Assembly: GCA_022710975.1 (NCBI GenBank)
Contig: JAKLGA010000001.1
Location: 434,001 to 498,000, forward strand
Length of the DNA stretch: 64,000 nucleotides
DNA from: Myxococcota bacterium
Lineage (GTDB): Bacteria > Myxococcota > B64-G9
Reading direction: 5' to 3'
Below the pieces are notes generated by a model. The model made no database searches. It saw nothing but the letters and a program-made list of their open reading frames with translations, and had not been told where the DNA came from. Of the stretch, positions 4,697 to 32,573 are shown in pieces (the first letter of the stretch is position 1; each line of letters starts with the position of its first letter). Position numbers and translations under genes: made by a program.

Positions 4697-6433
4697 ATGA
4701 ATGCGCGCAGCCTGGCGATCGCCCTGGTGGTCCTGGCGGCGGTCCTGAGCGCGGTCCTGCTGGGCCTGGCCGGCCTGACCTCCAGGCCGGAGGATGCGCG
4801 ACCGGCGGAGCACGACGAGGCCCTGGCGCGGCTGGTCGCCCGGGCCCTGGACCGGGACCTGACCGCGACCGCCCGCGGGGTGGAGCTGGGCGCGCGCCTG
4901 TTCGACCTGCCCAGCCTGCCGGCGGCGGAGACCACCGGCGTGCTGCGTATCCTCTACAAGCAGGACGAGGATCTGACCGCGGTGGTGCTCCTGGACGGCC
5001 AGGACCAGGCCGTGGTGGAGCCCGTTTTCTTGCGCGTCGAGCAGGTCGCCAGCCGCGGCGACGAGGCGGGGCACCTGCCACTCTCGGCCGAGGGGCTGGT
5101 GCGCTGCCTGCACAACCTGCCGGTGCAGGTCGCGCGCGAGAAGGGCTTCGCCATGTCGGACGCCTACGTGGATCCGCACACGAACGCCGTGCTGGTGGCG
5201 GGCGCCCTGGCCGTGTCCGCCGGCCCCGACCAGCCGGCCTGGATCCTGGGTTTCGAGCGCAACCTGCGCCGGGTGCAGAAGGTGGTGACCGCCGGCCTGG
5301 GCGGCTCCGAGCAGACCCTGTGGGTGGTGGACGGCGGCGGGCGGCTGCTGGCCCACCCGGATGGCCGGCGGGCGCTGGCCCGGGAGCCGTGGGCCGAGCA
5401 CCCGCTGGTGGCCGCCTTCCTCCAGGGCCAGCGCGCGCTGCAGCGCACCTGGCAGGGCGCCGACGGGCGCACGATGTTCGGGGCCCTCCAGCGGCTGGAC
5501 ACGGCGGACTGGGCCGTGGGGCTCGAGCTCGCGGGCCCGGCGGCCTCCCCCGGCCTGCCGCTCGGGTGGCGCTGGGCGGCCTGGTTCGCGGCCGTCCTGG
5601 CGCTGGCCGCGGTGGGGCTGCTCGGGGCGCGCAACCTCCAGCGCAAGCTGGACGCCATCGAGGCCCTGCGCCAGGAGGCCGAGCGGCAGCAGGTCGAGCT
5701 GGGCCGCGTGCAGGCCTCGCTGCTCGAGTCGCGGAAGCTGAACGCCATCGGCGATCTGGGGGCGGGGGTGGCCCACGAGTTCAACAACCCCCTGGGCGGC
5801 ATCCTGGGCCTGACCCAGCTGCTGCTGCGCAAGAAGAAGGACGGCGATCCCGACGTCGAGTTCCTGCGGCGCATCGAGACCGAGGCCAAGCGCTGCAAGG
5901 CCATCACCGACAACCTGCTGCGCTTCTCCGAGCAGGCGGGCAGCAACCACCGCGAGCCGCTGCGCATCGAGCGGGTCATGGACAAGGCGGTCGACCTGGT
6001 GCTGAGCAAGCTGGACCGCCAGCGCATCCGCATCGTGCGCGACTACGCCGCGGAGCTGCCGCGCGTCTTCGGCAGCGAGGGCGATCTGCAGCGGGCCTAC
6101 CTCAACCTGCTGCTGAACGCCGAGACCGCCATGCCCGAGGGCGGGGAGCTGCGCCTGTCCACGGCGACCGACGGAGACTGGATCGTGACCCGCGTGGCGG
6201 ACACCGGCCGCGGCATCCCGCCCGAGAACCTGGAGCGCGTGTTCGAGCCCTTCTTCACCACCAAGGACAACTGGAAGGGCGCCGGGCTGGGGCTGTGGGT
6301 GGTCTACCAGACAGTGCAGGAGCACGGCGGCTCGGTCGCCATCGAGAGCCAGCTGGGCCGCGGCACGGTGGTGACCTTCCGCCTGCCGCGGGAGGGCCGG
6401 GAGCAGCCCGATCCGGGCGTGCAGGCAGCCTGA
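4697..6433 (+). CDS. Membrane sensor histidine kinase (extracytoplasmic sensor, HisKA, HATPase)
   Basis: This 578-residue kinase has one TM helix at about 5-27, a periplasmic sensor region (about 30-285, perhaps Cache-like) and a second TM near 292-315. A short coiled coil leads to the HisKA domain with the phospho-acceptor His360 in GVAHEFNNPLGG. The ATPase domain has an N-box (NLLLNAETAM), a G1 box (DTGRGIP) and a G2 box (GAGLGLW). It should autophosphorylate on signal binding and pass phosphate to a response regulator, but none is encoded nearby. The start at 4697 follows GGGAGCG and puts the TM at the N-terminus; a TATGAT at 4654-4659 could be its -10. It heads a rightward signalling cluster. 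Confidence 0.92.
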   Translation: MNARSLAIALVVLAAVLSAVLLGLAGLTSRPEDARPAEHDEALARLVARALDRDLTATARGVELGARLFDLPSLPAAETTGVLRILYKQDEDLTAVVLLDGQDQAVVEPVFLRVEQVASRGDEAGHLPLSAEGLVRCLHNLPVQVAREKGFAMSDAYVDPHTNAVLVAGALAVSAGPDQPAWILGFERNLRRVQKVVTAGLGGSEQTLWVVDGGGRLLAHPDGRRALAREPWAEHPLVAAFLQGQRALQRTWQGADGRTMFGALQRLDTADWAVGLELAGPAASPGLPLGWRWAAWFAAVLALAAVGLLGARNLQRKLDAIEALRQEAERQQVELGRVQASLLESRKLNAIGDLGAGVAHEFNNPLGGILGLTQLLLRKKKDGDPDVEFLRRIETEAKRCKAITDNLLRFSEQAGSNHREPLRIERVMDKAVDLVLSKLDRQRIRIVRDYAAELPRVFGSEGDLQRAYLNLLLNAETAMPEGGELRLSTATDGDWIVTRVADTGRGIPPENLERVFEPFFTTKDNWKGAGLGLWVVYQTVQEHGGSVAIESQLGRGTVVTFRLPREGREQPDPGVQAA

Positions 6434-6436
6434 AGT

Positions 6437-6465
6437 TTGCCCCACCGCCGGGGACGGGCTACGAT
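6437..6465 (+). promoter_or_regulatory. Candidate promoter before the FecR-like gene
   Basis: TTGCCC (6437-6442) and TACGAT (6460-6465) are 17 nt apart, and the hexamers fit the pattern seen at other starts in this window. It would let the FecR/kinase/hydrolase genes be transcribed apart from the first kinase. Prediction by eye. Confidence 0.4.
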
Positions 6466-6484
6466 GGGTTGAGGGAGTGCTCGC

Positions 6485-7378
6485 ATGACCCGCCGGACCG
6501 CCGGTGTCCTCATCGGCCTGAACCTGGTCGCGCTGGCCGGCCTCGTGGGCTTCCACGTGGCCGCGCCCCCCGAGCCCCCGACGCTCGCGCCGCAGGGCTC
6601 CCGGGCCGTGCTGGGGGCCCTGGTGGGGCAGGTGGAGGTCCGCCGCCAAGGGACGAAGGTCTGGAGCGTCGCCCAGATCGGGGTGCTGCTCGAGGAGGGC
6701 GACGAGGTCCGCACCGGGCTGTTCTCCGAGGCCAGCCTTCTGCTGAAGGGCGCCTCCGAGGTCACCGTGGACCCCAACTCGAGCTTCGTGGTGGGCCGGG
6801 AGAAGGATCTGGCCTCGGCCTTCGAGCTGGCGGAGGGGCGCATCACCGCGGACCTGGCCCGCCAGGGGGAACGGGAGTACCTGTTCTACTCGCGCGGCAG
6901 CGACGCGGTGGCCACGGGCAAGGCGGGCGAGTTCTCGGTGGCCACCGACGGCAAGGGCACGGTGGTCGTGGACGCGCTCGAGGGCGAGGTCAAGCTGGTG
7001 GCCAAGGGCGGGGAGGTGCTCGTGCCGAAGGGCCGGCGCTCGATCGTGCTGCCTGACGCGCAGCCTGCCCCGGTCCTGCCCATCCCGTCCTCGGTGGCGT
7101 TGCAGGTGCGCTGGCCCGCCGCCAAGACCGACAAGACCTCGGTGCGCCTCGAGGGCAGCACGGTGGCCGGCGCCGTGGTGATGGTCAACGGCCTCATGGT
7201 GCGGGCGGACGGCGCGGGCAGCTTCCAGGTGGACGTGCCGCTGCGCGAGGGGCCCAACAAGCTCGTGGTCAACGCCACCGACAACGCGGGCAACGCCGCG
7301 CTCAAGGAGTCGCCGACCATCCTGGTGGACACCAAGCCACCCGCCCTGGACGTGGACGCCAAGGGGCTGTGGAAATGA
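6485..7378 (+). CDS. FecR-domain protein with Ig-like C-terminal domain, N-terminally anchored
   Basis: The 297-residue protein has one N-terminal hydrophobic helix (about 6-26), so most of it is extracytoplasmic. Residues about 45-190 match the FecR fold: GQVEVRRQGTKVW, EEGDEVRTG and later ATGKAGEFSVATDGKGTVV, the usual beta-roll with two similar halves. A C-terminal part (about 205-290) looks like a bacterial Ig domain, with GSTVAGAVVMVNG and the strand PNKLVVNATDNAGN. FecR domains relay signals across the envelope or bind partners in the periplasm. Its position between two histidine kinases suggests an accessory role in sensing, which is inference. Its stop overlaps the start of the next kinase (ATGA). 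Confidence 0.85.
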   Translation: MTRRTAGVLIGLNLVALAGLVGFHVAAPPEPPTLAPQGSRAVLGALVGQVEVRRQGTKVWSVAQIGVLLEEGDEVRTGLFSEASLLLKGASEVTVDPNSSFVVGREKDLASAFELAEGRITADLARQGEREYLFYSRGSDAVATGKAGEFSVATDGKGTVVVDALEGEVKLVAKGGEVLVPKGRRSIVLPDAQPAPVLPIPSSVALQVRWPAAKTDKTSVRLEGSTVAGAVVMVNGLMVRADGAGSFQVDVPLREGPNKLVVNATDNAGNAALKESPTILVDTKPPALDVDAKGLWK

Positions 7379-8187
7379 GCCGCGCGCCCGAGCACCCGCA
7401 GGACGAGCTCGGCGAGGCGCTGCAGCGCTCGCCCGAGGCGCTCCACCAGCTCGCCAAGCTGGCGGAGCTCGGACAGCAGGTCGCGGTCGTGGTGCACGAG
7501 CTCAGCCAGCCGCTGCTGGGCATCAAGGCCTTCGCCCAGATCCTGCAGCGCAAGTACCAGGACGACGCCTTCCTGGGGCCCAAGCTCGAGATCATCGTCA
7601 GGCAGGCCGAGCTGATGGACGAGATGCTCTCGGGCCTGCGGCAGTACGGGCGCACGGCCGTCGGCGCCCGCCCGCGCGCGGAGCCGGGGGCGGTGGTGCG
7701 CTCCTGCGTGGAGCTCCTGGGCGAGCGCGCCCGCAAGCTGCGGGTGCAGGTGCTGGTGGACGGCGATCAGGGCGGACCGGAGGCTCCGGCGCGGGAGGTG
7801 CGCTGCAGCCCGGGCAAGCTGCAGCAGATCGTGGTCAATCTCCTGACCAACGCCCTCGACGAGCTCGAGCCGCGCCACGGCGGGCGGATCCTGCTGCGGC
7901 TCTCGCGCGAGGAGGCCGGCCTGCGGCTGCTCGTGGCCGACAGCGGGGCGGGGGTCCCGGAGGAGCACCGCGCGCGCTTGTTCGAGGCCTTCTACACGTC
8001 CAAGGCGCCGGGCCGCGGCACGGGCCTGGGGCTGTCCATCTGCCGGGACATCCTGCAGCGCTGCGGCGGGGACATCCGCCTGCTCTCGCGCGAGGAGGCC
8101 GCGGCCGTCTTCGGGCAGGAGCTGGGCGCGTCCTTCGAGGTCAGGCTGCCCTGGGCCGAGCCGGAGGGGGCCGCCGCCGCGACATGA
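7375..8187 (+). CDS. Soluble histidine kinase without a recognisable sensor domain
   Basis: This 270-residue protein has no TM helix. HisKA begins near residue 25, with His41 in VVVHELSQPLLG. The HATPase domain has an N-box (NLLTNALDEL), G1 (DSGAGVP), an F-box-like FEAFYTSK and G2 (GTGLGLSICRD), so all catalytic motifs are present. The ATG at 7375 overlaps the previous stop, while the GTG at 7369 gives no better context. It may act on the same unknown regulator as the membrane kinase or take its signal from a partner protein. No response regulator or phosphotransfer protein is nearby. It is coupled by ATGA overlaps to both neighbours. Confidence 0.88.
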   Translation: MSRAPEHPQDELGEALQRSPEALHQLAKLAELGQQVAVVVHELSQPLLGIKAFAQILQRKYQDDAFLGPKLEIIVRQAELMDEMLSGLRQYGRTAVGARPRAEPGAVVRSCVELLGERARKLRVQVLVDGDQGGPEAPAREVRCSPGKLQQIVVNLLTNALDELEPRHGGRILLRLSREEAGLRLLVADSGAGVPEEHRARLFEAFYTSKAPGRGTGLGLSICRDILQRCGGDIRLLSREEAAAVFGQELGASFEVRLPWAEPEGAAAAT

Positions 8188-9206
8188 AGACCGCCCTGCA
8201 GCCGCGCCTGGTGAACGGGCCCGCCGGCGATCCGGCCCTGTTCGTGGACATCCTGCGCGAGCGCCGCGCCCTGCTGTTCGACTGCGGGCAGCTGCACGTC
8301 CTGGCGGCGGCCGAGTTGCTGCGCATCTCGGACGTGTTCGTCTCCCACGCCCACATCGACCACTTCATCGGTTTCGATCACCTGCTCCGGCTCCAGCTCG
8401 GCCGGCGCAGCCGGGTGCGGGTGTTCGGCCCGCCGGGCATACGGGACTGCGTGGGCGGCAAGCTCAGCGGTTACACCTGGAACCTGCTGCACAGCCAGCG
8501 CCTGGTGTTCGAGGTGCACGAGCTGGGCGAGGACGAAGAGGTGGTGACCGAGTTCGCCTGCCGGCGGCGCTTCCGCCCGACCCCCGGGTGCCGGCAGCCG
8601 CGCCACGAGCCCGTGCTGCGGGACGACCTGCTGGAGGTGCGGGCCGCGTTGCTCGACCACCGCATCCCGTCGGTGGCCTACGCGGTCCGCGAGCGGGACT
8701 TCTACAACGTCGATCCGGTGGCCCTGGAGGCCACGGGCCACCGGGCCGGGCCCTGGCTGGGCCGGCTCAAGGACTGGGCCCGGGCCGGCCGGCCGGAGGA
8801 CGCGCGGGTGGAGGTGGAGGGCAAGCTCTACCCCGCCCGGGAGCTGGCCGACGCGCTGCTGCTGCACTCCCCGGGCCACCTGCTGGCCTACGCCGCCGAC
8901 GCGCTGGGCAGCCCGCAGAACCGGAGCCGCCTGTGCGAGCTCGCCCGCGGGGCCGATTTGCTCTACTGCGAGGGGGCCTTCCTGCACGAGGATCTGGAGC
9001 GGGCCCGCGAGACCTACCACCTCACCGCCCGGCAGGCCGGCGAGATCGCGCGCGAGGCCGGCGCCAGGCGCCTGGTGGTGTTCCACCACTCCCCGAAGTA
9101 CGAGGGCCGTTTCCAGGATCTGGAGGCCGAGGCCGAGCGGGCCTTCCGCGGGGAGGCCGGGGCAGGCGACAGCCCGCCCGAGGTGGCCGACCAACCCGCG
9201 GAGTGA
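8184..9206 (+). CDS. RNase Z-like metallo-beta-lactamase-fold hydrolase
   Basis: The 340-residue product has the metal-binding HAHIDH motif at 55-60 near the N-terminus. Further on it has YAADALGSPQN (bridging Asp), an LYCEGAFLHEDLERARETYH segment and FHHSPKYEGRF. This order (HxHxDH, D, then the HLTARQAGEIAREAGA helix and a final His) is the RNase Z layout. RNase Z removes 3' tails from tRNA precursors, but several relatives have lost that job. The exosite arm is not obvious, so the substrate is open. Its ATG overlaps the kinase stop, an unusual setting for a tRNA-processing enzyme and a reason to suspect another role. Confidence 0.8.
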   Translation: MKTALQPRLVNGPAGDPALFVDILRERRALLFDCGQLHVLAAAELLRISDVFVSHAHIDHFIGFDHLLRLQLGRRSRVRVFGPPGIRDCVGGKLSGYTWNLLHSQRLVFEVHELGEDEEVVTEFACRRRFRPTPGCRQPRHEPVLRDDLLEVRAALLDHRIPSVAYAVRERDFYNVDPVALEATGHRAGPWLGRLKDWARAGRPEDARVEVEGKLYPARELADALLLHSPGHLLAYAADALGSPQNRSRLCELARGADLLYCEGAFLHEDLERARETYHLTARQAGEIAREAGARRLVVFHHSPKYEGRFQDLEAEAERAFRGEAGAGDSPPEVADQPAE

Positions 9207-27746: not shown

Positions 27747-28694
27747 GTGGTGCTCTCGCATCCGCACGTACACAAGCTGCTCGGTGAAGGCGCGCAGGCC
27801 TGCGGCCTCGGAGAGCACCTGGCGCAGCTGCAGGCGGCCGCCCTGGTGGCCGTGGACCTGGCCCCGGCCGGCGGGGACGACCTGCTGCGGCTGGGCAACA
27901 GCCGCCTGGGCGGCTGCCCCGATCTGCCGGTGGGCGCCGAGTGGCCCGCGGAGGACGGGCGCCTGTACTCCTTCGTGCTGCAGGCCGATCTGGCCTCCGT
28001 GCCGCGCTTCGGGGATGGGCCGCTGCCCGCGGCCGGCCGCCTGTACCTGTTCCTGGGTGATCTCACGCCCGGCAAGGGCGTCCAGCACCGGGTGCTCTTC
28101 CGCCTGCCCACCGAGCTGCCGCTGCGCCTGGTCCCGGTGCCCGACGGGTCCGAGTTCCTCAACCCGGACATGGGGCTGCTGCCGGCCCACAAGCTGCGCC
28201 CGCGCCTGGCGGTCAGCCTGCCCGCGCCCGCCGATCCCGCCCTGGCCGGCGTCGCGGTCGCGCCGCTGGCGGAGCGCTACGCCAGCCTGCTCGCGCGGCT
28301 CGCGGGCGACGCGCCGGTGCGGCTGCTGGGGCACCCCTACAGCACGGGCGAGGATCCCGCGGCCAACGCCTTCTTCCACCAGCGCGGGCTGACCAACCCG
28401 CGCCTGCTCCGGCGCGAGGAGGTGCAGCGCGTGCTGGCGGGCTGGGAGGGCAAGGGCCAGCCGGCCATGGTGCGCTACCTGCGCCAGCAGCTCGACTCCC
28501 TGGCCTGGTACGAGCAGCACCGCGCCGAGGCGGACCGCGAGGTCGGGGCCTGGCGCTGCCTGCTGCGCGTGCGCTCCGCGCCCGAGGTGGCATTCCAGCT
28601 CTGGGGCGACGGGGTGCTGAACGTGATGGTCCGACGCGAGGACCTCCAGGAGCGCCGCTTCGATCGCACCTACGCCGAGCTGGTGGAGGAGTGA
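27747..28694 (+). CDS. DUF1963 (YwqG-like) family protein
   Basis: The 315-residue product shows RLGGCPDLPVGAEWP (about 53-67), then a middle LYLFLGD and near the end the strand EVAFQLWGDGVLNVMVRREDL, where DUF1963 has W-G-D-x-G-x-x-x-F. The family is soluble and widespread, with no known activity. The GTG start has GGGGAGG 8 nt upstream. It lies 33 bp before the kinase-reductase-rhodanese fusion gene and is probably cotranscribed with it. Confidence 0.82.
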   Translation: MVLSHPHVHKLLGEGAQACGLGEHLAQLQAAALVAVDLAPAGGDDLLRLGNSRLGGCPDLPVGAEWPAEDGRLYSFVLQADLASVPRFGDGPLPAAGRLYLFLGDLTPGKGVQHRVLFRLPTELPLRLVPVPDGSEFLNPDMGLLPAHKLRPRLAVSLPAPADPALAGVAVAPLAERYASLLARLAGDAPVRLLGHPYSTGEDPAANAFFHQRGLTNPRLLRREEVQRVLAGWEGKGQPAMVRYLRQQLDSLAWYEQHRAEADREVGAWRCLLRVRSAPEVAFQLWGDGVLNVMVRREDLQERRFDRTYAELVEE

Positions 28695-28727
28695 ACCCAC
28701 CGGCCCGCAGCACCGCCAGGGGGTAGC

Positions 28728-31127
28728 ATGTCCGCGCCAGACTCGCCCCACGACTCGCTGCAGTTCGCCGCCATCGTGGCCCACCAGCTCAAGAGCCCGG
28801 TGGTGGCCGTCTCCTCGCTGCTGCAGGTGCTGCTCGACGAGAGCCTGGGCGGGCTGTCCGCCCGCCAGCGCGACCTGCTGTGGCGCGCCCAGGGCCGCTG
28901 CGGCGAGGCCCTGGCGGCGGCCAGGCGCCTGCTTGAGCTGGCGCGGCCCACCCCCAGCGGCCAGGTGCCCGAGATCGTGGACGTGGCCCAGGTGGCCGAG
29001 CGCTTCGCGGTTCCCTTCCGTTCCCAGGCGGCCGAGCGCGAGATCGCCTTCAGCGCCGAGCTGCAGGGCCCGGCCCGGGCGGCGATGCGCGAGGCGGCGC
29101 TGGTGGAGGTGCTCTCGGCCCTGGTGTCCAACGCCATCAAGTACACCCCGCCGCGGGGGAAGGTGCGGTTGCGCGCCCTGCTCCAGGGGCGGGAGGTGCT
29201 GGTGCAGGTGGACGACTCCGGCGTCGGCGTGCCCGAGGCCGAGCGCGAGCGCATCTTCCTGCCGTTCGTGCGCTCGGCGCTGGCGGTCGCCTCCGCCCGG
29301 CCCGGGGTGGGGCTGGGGCTGTTCTTCGTCAAGGCCGTGGTGGAGGAGGCCGGGGGCACGGTGGCGGTGGAGCGGGGCGAGCTGGGCGGGGCCTGCTTCA
29401 GCGTGCGCCTGCCGGCCCAGGCGTCCGCCCCGGCGGCGGTGGCCGCGCCGGCCGGGCTGCGGGTGGTGATCGTGGGCGGCGCGGCCGCCGGGCCCAAGGT
29501 GGCCTCGCGCCTGTGCCGGTTGAAGCCGGACGCCCAGGTGACCATCCTGGAGCGCGGCCGCCACCTGGCCTTCACCGGCTGCGGCCTGCCGTACTACGTC
29601 TCGGGCGTGGTGGCCGATCGCAAGGAGCTGATGAGCACCGCCGCGGGCGCGCTCCGGGATCCGGTCTTCTTCCACGACGTGAAGCACGTCCAGGTGCGGC
29701 CGCGCACCGAGGCCCTGGAGATCGACCGCGCCGGCAAGCGGGTGCGGGTGCGCGATCTGGCCAGCGGCGAGGAGGACTGGCTGCCCTACGACGCGCTGGT
29801 GCTGGCCACGGGCGCCCGGGCCAGGCGCCTGGACGTGCCGGGCGTGGAGCTGCCGGGCATCTACTCGCTGCACGGCCCGGACGACGCCGACGGCATCCGG
29901 CGCGCGCTGGGCGAGGGCCGGGCGCTCGACGTGGCGGTGGTGGGCGGCGGCCTGCTGGGCGTCGAGGTGACCGAGGCCCTGGCCGCCAAGGGCTGCCGGG
30001 TGACCATCGTGGAGCTCGCCCGGCGCATCCTGGGCATGCTGGACGAGGAGATGGCCAGGCTGGTGGAGCGGCAGTTCGAGGCGCACGGCGTGCGGGTGCT
30101 CACCCAGACCGAGGTGCGCGGCTTCGCCGGCCGCGGGCGGGTGGAGCGCGTGCTGCTCGGGGACGGCGAGCTGCGCGCCGATCTGGTCATCCTGAGCGCC
30201 GGGGTCGAGCCCAACGTCGATCTGGCCCGGGCCGCGGGCCTGGCGCTGGGGCCCTTCGGTGGGCTGCGGGTGGACGCGCAGATGCGCACCTCCGATCCGT
30301 CCGTGTTCGCCGCCGGCGACTGCGTCGAGACCCCCCACCTGATGCTGGCCGAGCCGCGCTTCATGCCCATGGGCTCGACCGCCAACCGCCAGGGGCGGGT
30401 GCTGGCCGGAGTGCTGTGCGGCCGCGAGGACACCTACCCGGGCTCGCTGGCCACCGCCATCTGCCGGGTGTTCGACTGGTGCGTGGCCCGCACCGGGTTG
30501 ACCGAGGCCGAGGCCCGCGCCGAGCGGCGGGCCGTGGTCACCGCGCTCGTGCCCGGACCGGATCGGGCGTCCTACCTGCCCGACTCGCAGCCGCTGTACC
30601 TGAAGCTGGTGGTGGACGCCCGCAGCCGCCGGCTGCTGGGCGCGCAGGCGGTGGGCCCCGGGCGGGGCGACAAGCGCGTGGACGTGGCCGCGACGGCCAT
30701 CGCGCTCGGGGCCAGCGTGGATCACCTGGCCCACCTCGACCTGGCCTACGCGCCGCCCTACTCGGAGGCGCTCGACAACCTGATCACCGCCGCCAACGTG
30801 GTGCGCAACAAGCTGGACGGCCTGCTGCGGGGCATCTCGCCGCTCGAGCTGCAGGAGCGGCTCGAGCGCGGGGAGCCCCTGTGCCTGCTGGACGTGCGCT
30901 CCCCGGCCGAGTACGAGCGCGAGCGCCTGCCGGGCTCGACCCTCATCCCGCTCGGCGCGCTGCGCGGGCGGCTGCACGAGCTGCCCCGCGACCGGGACAT
31001 CGTGGCCTTCTGCAACCTGTCGCTGCGCGGCTACGAGGCGCAGATCATCCTGCGCGCGGCGGGCTTCGAGCGGGTGTGGGTGCTGGACGGGGGGCTGGCG
31101 ATGTGGCCCTTCGACAAGGCCTACTAG
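28728..31127 (+). CDS. Histidine kinase - CoA-disulfide reductase - rhodanese fusion
   Basis: This 799-residue soluble protein has three complete modules. Residues 1-230 are a histidine-kinase core: phospho-acceptor His19 in VAHQLKSPVVAV, N-box Asn135, G1 box DSGVGVP (from 163) and G2 box GVGLGLFF (193-200). Residues about 243-690 are a CoADR-type flavoprotein: FAD loop GGAAAG (250-255), redox Cys285 in FTGCGLPYYVSG, an NAD motif VVGGGLLGVE (about 400), AAGDC and YAPPYSEA. Residues about 700-799 are a rhodanese with Cys762 in FCNLSLRGYE. CoADR-rhodanese enzymes reduce CoA disulfide or persulfides. Joined to a kinase, the reductase probably acts as a thiol or sulfur-state sensor, which is inference. 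No response regulator is nearby. ATG at 28728 follows GGGGG. Confidence 0.92.
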   Translation: MSAPDSPHDSLQFAAIVAHQLKSPVVAVSSLLQVLLDESLGGLSARQRDLLWRAQGRCGEALAAARRLLELARPTPSGQVPEIVDVAQVAERFAVPFRSQAAEREIAFSAELQGPARAAMREAALVEVLSALVSNAIKYTPPRGKVRLRALLQGREVLVQVDDSGVGVPEAERERIFLPFVRSALAVASARPGVGLGLFFVKAVVEEAGGTVAVERGELGGACFSVRLPAQASAPAAVAAPAGLRVVIVGGAAAGPKVASRLCRLKPDAQVTILERGRHLAFTGCGLPYYVSGVVADRKELMSTAAGALRDPVFFHDVKHVQVRPRTEALEIDRAGKRVRVRDLASGEEDWLPYDALVLATGARARRLDVPGVELPGIYSLHGPDDADGIRRALGEGRALDVAVVGGGLLGVEVTEALAAKGCRVTIVELARRILGMLDEEMARLVERQFEAHGVRVLTQTEVRGFAGRGRVERVLLGDGELRADLVILSAGVEPNVDLARAAGLALGPFGGLRVDAQMRTSDPSVFAAGDCVETPHLMLAEPRFMPMGSTANRQGRVLAGVLCGREDTYPGSLATAICRVFDWCVARTGLTEAEARAERRAVVTALVPGPDRASYLPDSQPLYLKLVVDARSRRLLGAQAVGPGRGDKRVDVAATAIALGASVDHLAHLDLAYAPPYSEALDNLITAANVVRNKLDGLLRGISPLELQERLERGEPLCLLDVRSPAEYERERLPGSTLIPLGALRGRLHELPRDRDIVAFCNLSLRGYEAQIILRAAGFERVWVLDGGLAMWPFDKAY

Positions 31128-31130
31128 GGC

Positions 31131-32573
31131 TCAGAGCTGGATCTGCTTCCACTTCCCCTGGCGGAACTTCCAGGCCAGGATCGAGGTGAGCAGCACCGCG
31201 TAGACGGCCGCCGCGGACCAGGTGCCCAGCATCCCGCCGCCCAGGACGATGCCCAGCAGGTAGGACAGCGGGATCAGGCAGCCGAAGTGCAGCAGCAGCT
31301 CGACCTTCATGACGAACTTCGGGTTGCCCGCCCCGTACAGGGCCTGGACTAGGACCAGCCCGGCGCTGATCACCCCGGTGAAGGCGCCCATCAGGCGGAA
31401 GGCCGGCACGGCCACCTCGATGACCGCGACCTTGTCGGTGAAGATGGCCAGGAACACGCGCGGGAAGAGGATGATCGCCACGCCCAGCAGGCCCATCACG
31501 TAGCCGCCGATGCGCACCGACTGCCAGCCGTAGCGCTCGGCCAGATCGGGCTTGCCCGCGCCCAGGCTCTGGCCGACCAGGGTGGCGGTGGCGGTGCCGA
31601 AGGCGATCGAGATCATGAAGACCATCATCAGGAAGGAGATCATGATCCAGCTCGCGCTGGTGATGAGATCGGGCCGCAGGATCCCGGCCGCCTGGAGCAT
31701 CGCGCCGCCCAGCGGCAGCGTGGCGAGCTCGCGCAGGTACACGGGCGTGGGCTGGATGTGGCCCATGACCCACAGGAAGAACTCGAAGCCGCTCATGACG
31801 AAGATGGTGGCCAGGCCCGAGGGCACGCTCAGGCGCACGATCTCCCAGGCCACGTGGCGGTTCAGGTTGCTCAGGCGGAAGTAGCGGAAGGCCTCGCGGT
31901 TCTCCTTGCGCAGGCTCCAGTAGACCATGAAGCCCAGGCCGACGTAGGTGGCGATCAGCGTGGCCCAGGCCGAGCCGGCCACCTCCAGGCGCGGGAAACC
32001 CAGGTTGCCGTACACCAGCAGCAGCGCCATGCCGATGTTGACGAAGTTCATGGTGATCGAGGCGATCATGTGGACGTAGGTCTTGCCGATGGCGTCGAAG
32101 AAGGACTTGAAGCTGAAGGTGACCACCATCGAGAACACGTTCAGCATGCGGATCTGGCAGTAGGCGGCGCCGAGCCTCGCCACGTTGGGGTTGGGCGACA
32201 GCAGGGGGAACACCTCGGGGATGACGAACCAGCCGACGAGCGAGATGCACAGCCCGCAGGCCAGGGCGATCACCAGCGAGTTGCTGAGCGCCCGCCCGGC
32301 CAGCTCCATCTGGCCCTCGCCGAAGCGCCGGGCGGTGATGGCCTGGGTGCCGACCGAGATGGACGAGAAGAAGCCGCCGATGGCCCAGAAGAGCGGCAGG
32401 CTGAGGCCGATGGCGGCCACGCCGTCCACCCCGGTCGAGCCCGGCAGGCGCCCGACCAGGGCCGTGTCCACGTGGTTGACCAGGGTCTCGGTGAACATGC
32501 CCAGGATGACCGGGACGGCCAGGGTGCCGATGCGCTTGCTCAGGGTGGGGTCGATGCCCAGGTTCAAGGTCAC
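31131..32573 (-). CDS. MATE-family multidrug/cation efflux protein
   Basis: The 480-residue product is a typical MATE protein with about 12 TM helices in two halves. The first half begins LAVPVILGMFTETLVNHVDTALVGRL, and the second half repeats a similar pattern near FGTATATLVGQSLGAGKPD. MATE exporters use a Na+ or H+ gradient to expel cationic compounds. Which substrate or ion cannot be told. The gene ends 3 bp after the fusion protein's stop and faces it. A TTGACT-N17-TAGGTA promoter lies just upstream. Confidence 0.92.
   Translation of the reverse strand: MTLNLGIDPTLSKRIGTLAVPVILGMFTETLVNHVDTALVGRLPGSTGVDGVAAIGLSLPLFWAIGGFFSSISVGTQAITARRFGEGQMELAGRALSNSLVIALACGLCISLVGWFVIPEVFPLLSPNPNVARLGAAYCQIRMLNVFSMVVTFSFKSFFDAIGKTYVHMIASITMNFVNIGMALLLVYGNLGFPRLEVAGSAWATLIATYVGLGFMVYWSLRKENREAFRYFRLSNLNRHVAWEIVRLSVPSGLATIFVMSGFEFFLWVMGHIQPTPVYLRELATLPLGGAMLQAAGILRPDLITSASWIMISFLMMVFMISIAFGTATATLVGQSLGAGKPDLAERYGWQSVRIGGYVMGLLGVAIILFPRVFLAIFTDKVAVIEVAVPAFRLMGAFTGVISAGLVLVQALYGAGNPKFVMKVELLLHFGCLIPLSYLLGIVLGGGMLGTWSAAAVYAVLLTSILAWKFRQGKWKQIQL

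Follow-up and report, generated by a model that had tools for sequence, protein, structure and literature searches.

A single intact gene in the window (the whole stretch of 64,000 nucleotides that was analysed) was found to encode a complete histidine kinase joined to a complete FAD-dependent reductase with a C-terminal rhodanese domain, and we recovered the same full-length fusion from 20 genomes of three phyla. Judging from the conservation of their residues, the kinase half and the reductase half are both retained as working modules. As to the role of the protein, we regard the chances as evenly balanced that it is a soluble redox-sensing kinase, in which an NADH-dependent persulfide reductase (Npsr) would serve as the sensor and which would signal to separate response regulators in the control of H2, NADH and sulfur redox metabolism. 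The gene, its parts and its immediate neighbours in the window are as follows.

27747..28694, + strand: upstream DUF1963 gene (Pfam), 33 nt from the fusion
28718..28723, + strand: Shine-Dalgarno-like AGGGGG, 4 nt 5' of the fusion ATG, read from the sequence
28728..31127, + strand: complete kinase-reductase-rhodanese fusion gene, 799 aa, with full-length homologues in 19 further genomes
28752..28952, + strand: DHp (HisKA) domain, residues 9-75 (Pfam HisKA); 52% mean pairwise identity over the 20 fusions
28782..28787, + strand: phospho-acceptor His19 followed by Gln20, in the H-box AHQLKSP; H and Q invariant in 20/20
28965..29417, + strand: ATP-binding domain, residues 80-230 (HATPase_c), with N135; D163, G165, G167; F180; G193, G195, G197, all invariant in 20/20
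29418..29459, + strand: Ala/Pro-rich linker from kinase to reductase, about 15 aa (13-20 aa and 19% identity over the 20 fusions)
29460..30797, + strand: FAD/NADH persulfide-reductase (CoADR-type) domains, residues 245-690 (Pfam Pyr_redox_2, Pyr_redox_dim; PDB 6pfz)
29580..29582, + strand: redox-active Cys285 (TGCGLPYY); Cys in 20/20 fusions and in 41/41 compared stand-alone enzymes
30825..31118, + strand: C-terminal rhodanese domain, about residues 700-797 (Pfam Rhodanese 705-793)
31011..31013, + strand: rhodanese active Cys762 (CNLSLRGYEA); Cys in 20/20
31131..32573, - strand: convergent MATE-family efflux transporter gene, 3 nt past the fusion stop (Pfam/NCBIfam)

The open reading frame of the fusion starts with ATG and runs through 799 codons without an internal stop, and its GC3 (0.983 in the kinase part vs 0.980 in the reductase part) matches that of the rest of the window's genes. 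Pfam placed HisKA at residues 12-74, HATPase_c at 122-231, Pyr_redox_2 at 245-538, Pyr_redox_dim at 578-684 and Rhodanese at 705-793, so that the original prediction of one frame with a complete kinase core and a complete reductase-rhodanese was borne out. The residues named in that prediction (His19, Asn135, D163-G165-G167, G193-G195-G197, GGAAAG 250-255, Cys285, YAPPYS 674-679 and Cys762) were found at the positions given for them, and no stop or frameshift, the sign of two separate genes, was present near codon 235. It was also right that the protein has no other sensor domain, since only 8 residues precede the DHp domain and no additional Pfam domain was detected; the source of any input must therefore be either the reductase-rhodanese half or a second protein. 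The DUF1963 gene and the fusion may be co-transcribed; in the neighbourhoods of the relatives, no DUF1963 gene was found adjoining the fusion. The convergent MATE gene is the downstream limit of the fusion unit. Elsewhere in the window, at 4697-9206, there are four same-strand genes, among them genes for two more histidine kinases, one at 4697-6433 that matches dCache weakly and the other, a soluble protein, at 7375-8187, and genes for a FecR-domain protein and a metallo-beta-lactamase-fold protein.

The first half appears to be a kinase of the HisKA type, having the H-box His in the DHp domain and the N, G1, F and G2 boxes. The HATPase_c match reached 76.7 bits (Pfam); the HisKA match (26.6 bits, E 6e-6) lay 0.3 bits below the Pfam cut-off of 26.9, and its H-box AHQLKSP is clear. 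In the fusion sequences that were inspected by eye, no conserved Cys that might act as a direct thiol switch was seen in the kinase part. The nearest unfused kinases in the six genomes searched were receiver-kinase hybrids (G968:C93, G195:C40 and G250:C40). Two of these hybrids, G195:C40 and G250:C40, join the fusion kinases at 90/85 and adjoin hydrogenase genes; they have an N-terminal receiver, no reductase and HE in the H-box, whereas the fusion kinases have HQ.

The second half gave its best PDB match to the Archaeoglobus fulgidus enzyme 6PFZ (470 bits over residues 245-793), followed by the Bacillus anthracis and Shewanella enzymes. The A. fulgidus protein, AfNpsr, is an NADH-dependent persulfide reductase that is specific for NADH and has NADH oxidase activity; it prefers persulfides and polysulfides, and its activity with CoA disulfide was not detectable (PMC7969121). 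The route proposed for it leads sulfur from the rhodanese Cys via bound CoA to the flavin Cys (PMC7969121). An earlier reading of this half as a CoA-disulfide reductase had to be given up, because the protein did not reach the CoA-disulfide-reductase equivalog TIGR03385 of NCBIfam (376.7 bits vs a cut-off of 578.8) and its closest solved relative is inactive on CoA disulfide. For the same reasons, the missed cut-off and the persulfide reductase as the best solved relative, the second half is best called an Npsr whose substrate is putative, and sulfane sulfur or a persulfide seems likelier as that substrate than CoA disulfide. Features of Npsr are present in the fusion, namely the FAD/NAD domains with the CG(L)PYY Cys and the C-terminal rhodanese with its acceptor Cys. 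In addition, the CoA-closing loop of AfNpsr, TTYGAVR, aligns with STAAGALR of the window protein, and Glu429, which ends the second Rossmann strand and is invariant in 20/20, would fit a preference for NADH. The active-site residues of the fusions are those of the 41 stand-alone Npsr proteins compared, and thus the enzyme does not seem to have decayed into a pure sensor.

The known Npsr/CoADR-RHD enzymes (A. fulgidus 6PFZ, Shewanella loihica 3NTA and B. anthracis 3ICR) share with the window protein the FAD/NAD(P)H domains, the CGLPYY Cys and the C-terminal rhodanese Cys; they are enzymes without a kinase, whereas the window protein adds a complete N-terminal histidine kinase. CoADR (TIGR03385) has the flavoprotein fold and the context of the redox Cys in common with it but lacks the rhodanese domain.

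A scan with a single genome taken per species yielded L025 (57% identity to the window protein over residues 5-799), and the own family yielded G006 (42% over residues 10-795). A search profile was built from these three proteins and run against whole genomes. Full-length fusions were found in 2 of 195 genomes of the own phylum (its own genome and G006), in 11 of 388 genomes sampled from the phylum of L025, with three additional ones from the class of L025 and three from another class of that phylum, and in 1 of 247 genomes sampled from the phylum to which a Deferrisomatales MAG belongs. The 20 genomes thus comprise two Myxococcota-like ones (own and G006), 17 Verrucomicrobiota and one from the third phylum, which is probably Desulfobacterota. 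In an rpoB tree, read without G408 and placing two of the three phyla, the own genome and G006 adjoin the Polyangiaceae (99/99) and the L025 genome falls with Verrucomicrobia, in a larger group whose sister is Chlamydiae (97/97).

The kinase residues His19, Gln20, Pro24, Asn135, Tyr139, Asp163, Gly165, Gly167, Phe180, Gly193, Gly195 and Gly197 are invariant in all 20 proteins, and so are Lys257, Cys285, Arg310, Glu429, Asp531, Asp722, Cys762 and Glu770. Support had been expected from repeated co-occurrence of the halves in one protein across taxa and doubt from a loss of key residues among relatives; the former was observed in 20 genomes, none of which has lost the kinase boxes or either Cys. 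By mean pairwise identity the reductase stands at 62%, the rhodanese domain at 54%, the DHp domain at 52% and the ATP-binding domain at 44%, as against 19% for the linker. In the five pairs compared, the kinase gave dN/dS values of 0.05-0.31; those of the reductase were 0.06-0.16 and those of the rhodanese 0.08-0.15, so that purifying selection acts on both halves. In the fusion of G1016 (L287) an in-frame TAG separates the reductase from the rhodanese, at codon 697 of the aligned stretch; it marks either a truncated form or a sequencing error.

Trees of the reductase and of the kinase took in the 17 fusions known at that stage. In the reductase tree, 16 of the 17, those of the window and of G968 included, form one clade (100/98) with stand-alone enzymes as its sister, and G006, a long branch, lies outside this clade, set off by supported branches. 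In the kinase tree, for which unfused kinases were sampled from six genomes, all 17 form one clade (97/93); G006 branches first and the window's kinase adjoins those of G628 and G624 (99/91). The trees allow two readings: a single origin of the fusion followed by its loss in the stand-alone lines, or two separate joinings of the same kinase lineage. The patchy distribution suggests lateral transfer of the fusion.

We then compared the neighbourhoods of the fusions. Neighbouring genes in the relatives were called with a simple codon-usage caller, and the key ones were confirmed by NCBIfam/Pfam or by similarity to confirmed ones. The arrangements that bear on possible partners are these.

G628: hypE-hypA-FUSION-hypB-CBS, with the fusion 8 nt past hypA
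G624: hypD-hypE-hypA-FUSION-hypB-CBS
G575: hypE-hypA-hypB upstream of the fusion
G250: NiCoT and Rex on one side; on the other hydF-hydE-hydG, a receiver-kinase hybrid, an [FeFe]-hydrogenase-kinase protein, hydrogenase subunit genes and hox-type genes
G487: a divergent HoxE-like gene by the fusion
G1016: a hox operon whose last gene is a single-domain response regulator
G006: fusion last after a complex-I-like/Mrp-like operon, with Rex preceding the operon and a single-domain response regulator beyond
G543 and G343 (L106:3263-6429, - strand; L108:2669-6240, + strand): fusion, then a PAS kinase and a protein with a receiver domain at each end
L248:7601-7987 (- strand), L202:7223-7594 (- strand), L287:1656-2063 (- strand): single-domain response regulators of one type (DLMMEEVDxG)

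Structural or maturation genes of hydrogenases lie within 6.5 kb of 6/20 fusion loci vs 0/25 stand-alone Npsr loci (p=0.005), and a [NiFe]-hydrogenase large subunit is encoded in 15/17 fusion genomes vs 7/19 stand-alone genomes (p=0.002), both tests treating loci as independent regardless of kinship, with the six linked loci representing about five lineages. Neither this gene context nor the kinship with hydrogenase-associated kinases had been part of the original prediction. The remaining 14/20 fusion loci have no hydrogenase gene within 6.5 kb, some of them owing to contig ends. The presence of an [FeFe]-hydrogenase did not discriminate, being equally common in genomes with stand-alone Npsr. 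Beside the window's own fusion there is no hydrogenase or response regulator; in its genome an Mvh-type [NiFe]-hydrogenase is encoded on a different contig, and [FeFe]-hydrogenase is lacking (PF02906 absent).

The fusions do not share any one response regulator as a conserved neighbour. The DLMMEEVDxG regulators, which lie in hox-type operons of G1016, G195 and G250, are candidate partners of the hydrogenase-linked kinases, and in G543 and G343 the PAS kinase and the two-receiver protein could form one phosphorelay with the fusion.

Some candidate links were tried and rejected. A lead from kinase-domain matches labelled HydS at L106, L108, L112 and L135 was dropped, since the matches fall on PAS-kinase proteins in L106 and L108 and on the fusion's own kinase in L112, and not on hydrogenase domains. 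The operon next to the G006 fusion was considered as a [NiFe]-hydrogenase/MBS complex, and its D subunit proved to be the NuoD equivalog. A small gene beside five fusions was considered as the TM1266 hydrogenase regulator; it belongs to the CPF_0552 family, with TIGR03959 below cut-off in the three checked, and was left out of the hydrogenase evidence. This TM1266-related gene is found directly or closely 3' of the fusion in one subclade (L102, L103, L104, L105 and L192).

Taken as a sensor kinase, the fusion would be a soluble, cytoplasmic, homodimeric protein whose sensory module is an intact Npsr with FAD, Cys285, probably bound CoA, and Cys762. As the conserved residues suggest, Cys762 would accept sulfane sulfur and pass it through CoA to Cys285, and NADH would reduce it to H2S, the known chemistry of Npsr. 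Changes of the reductase dimer in its redox, persulfide or NADH-occupancy state might then alter the access of the ATP-binding domain to His19 via the short flexible tether. The phosphate would be passed from His19 to a response regulator with a gene of its own, which in several relatives plausibly lies within or close to the hydrogenase genes, and the output would adjust H2, NADH and sulfur redox metabolism. A sensor usually lies N-terminal to the DHp domain. The reductase lies C-terminal to the ATP-binding domain, contrary to this placement, which counts against the sensor model, and with an unconserved linker of 13-20 aa in this position there is no obvious route for helical signal transmission. 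Since the linker is unconserved, coupling, if any, would go through domain contact and not through a rigid helix. A structure prediction from two sequences (window and L025) gave no confident model of the full fusion (pLDDT 41). The more specific claim, that an undescribed family of soluble sensor kinases reads reactive sulfur or NADH through an intact C-terminal persulfide reductase and so makes the phosphorelay control of hydrogenases in anaerobic bacteria depend on the sulfane-sulfur/CoA-persulfide redox state, is one that we make tentatively, with the balance somewhat against it.

A variant that overlaps with the sensor model takes the NADH/NAD+ ratio or O2 as the cue instead of sulfur, the redox state of the flavin setting the kinase and the rhodanese being inherited. 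The NADH specificity and NADH oxidase activity of AfNpsr (PMC7969121) point this way, as do the invariant Glu429 at the position expected for NADH preference, the NADH sensor Rex near two fusions and the NAD-linked hox genes near two. The rhodanese Cys, however, is retained in 20/20 and the domain is under purifying selection (the dN/dS given above), so sulfur transfer is probably still in use, and we consider a cue of this kind rather doubtful, although a serious candidate.

It is also conceivable, but unlikely, that control runs in the reverse direction, with the reductase as the effector; the kinase would respond to ATP/ADP, to a partner protein or to a membrane complex, and would control persulfide reduction in cis. 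All catalytic residues of the reductase are retained as in the stand-alone enzymes, as for a working enzyme, no response regulator is conserved next to the fusion, and a sensor past the ATP-binding domain would be unusually placed. On the other hand, the normal target of a histidine kinase core is a receiver domain, which this protein lacks, and we know of no precedent in which a DHp/ATPase pair regulates a reductase fused to it; the linker, being flexible and unconserved, speaks against tight allostery in either direction.

That same short linker, together with the completeness of the reductase and the fact that its close stand-alone relatives work as an enzyme without a kinase, would suit a protein in which the halves are merely tethered. 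The kinase would then serve hydrogenase or redox signalling and the reductase the local removal of sulfane sulfur or the oxidation of NADH, the two being joined for co-expression or placement with no mutual control. The join has been retained in 20 genomes of three phyla, the kinase is under purifying selection in every tested pair and a 16-member fusion clade appears in both trees; together these suggest that the join itself matters, and mere tethering seems unlikely as well. Finally, an artefact, whether two genes merged through faulty sequencing or assembly or a kinase fragment in decay, can be set aside as having practically no chance, for although HisKA alone scores slightly below the Pfam cut-off, homologues in 20 separately assembled genomes carry the identical join with invariant catalytic residues, and the gene has one ATG, an RBS-like site and uniform GC3.

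For the preferred reading, that of a kinase with the reductase as its sensor, a similar design is found in the group C and D sensory [FeFe]-hydrogenases (HydS), in which a redox enzyme acts as the putative sensor (PMC13104023). The window protein shares with HydS the idea of a redox enzyme as the putative sensor of a kinase, but no H-cluster or FeS domain was found in it by Pfam, and its flavin persulfide reductase is C-terminal to the kinase, whereas the enzyme of HydS is N-terminal. About 6 kb from the G250 fusion there is an [FeFe]-hydrogenase-domain protein of 672 aa (L202:616-2631, - strand) with a C-terminal histidine kinase domain, in a cluster of hox-type and [FeFe]-hydrogenase genes with two single-domain response regulators. 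This protein, related to HydS in its design idea, is a precedent for an enzyme as a kinase's sensor. A full-text search of 5.4 million open-access papers on domain-name combinations found no description of the fusion. We rated the enzyme type, its C-terminal position and the sulfur/NADH chemistry as new, and a kinase with an enzyme-type sensor as known.

To our knowledge, little has been established on how reactive sulfur and NADH state are coupled to two-component signalling in bacteria, and the persulfide sensors that we know of, CstR, SqrR and FisR, are transcription factors, none of them a kinase. The fusion is a single polypeptide in which such a coupling is directly testable: its putative sensor has an enzymatic turnover that can be measured and active-site cysteines that are known, and the output is autophosphorylation. 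The hydrogenase link suggests co-control of sulfur redox and H2 metabolism in poorly studied Verrucomicrobiota and Myxococcota-like bacteria, which would be new physiology.

The stand-alone Npsr genes have neighbours of another kind, as seen mostly by eye: BASS-type transporters, thioredoxin, peroxiredoxin, OsmC-like, DsrE-like and Mrp-like genes. The stand-alone enzymes of Verrucomicrobiota (L114-L125) often adjoin genes for BASS-type transporters, NifX-like and Mrp-like proteins, peroxiredoxin, thioredoxin and OsmC-like proteins. Another stand-alone reductase-rhodanese, L015 (G035:C27:23518-25146, an open frame of 833 aa), apparently continues in frame into TusA-like (CGLQCPGP) and DsrE-like domains, and appears to be a multi-part sulfur-transfer protein.
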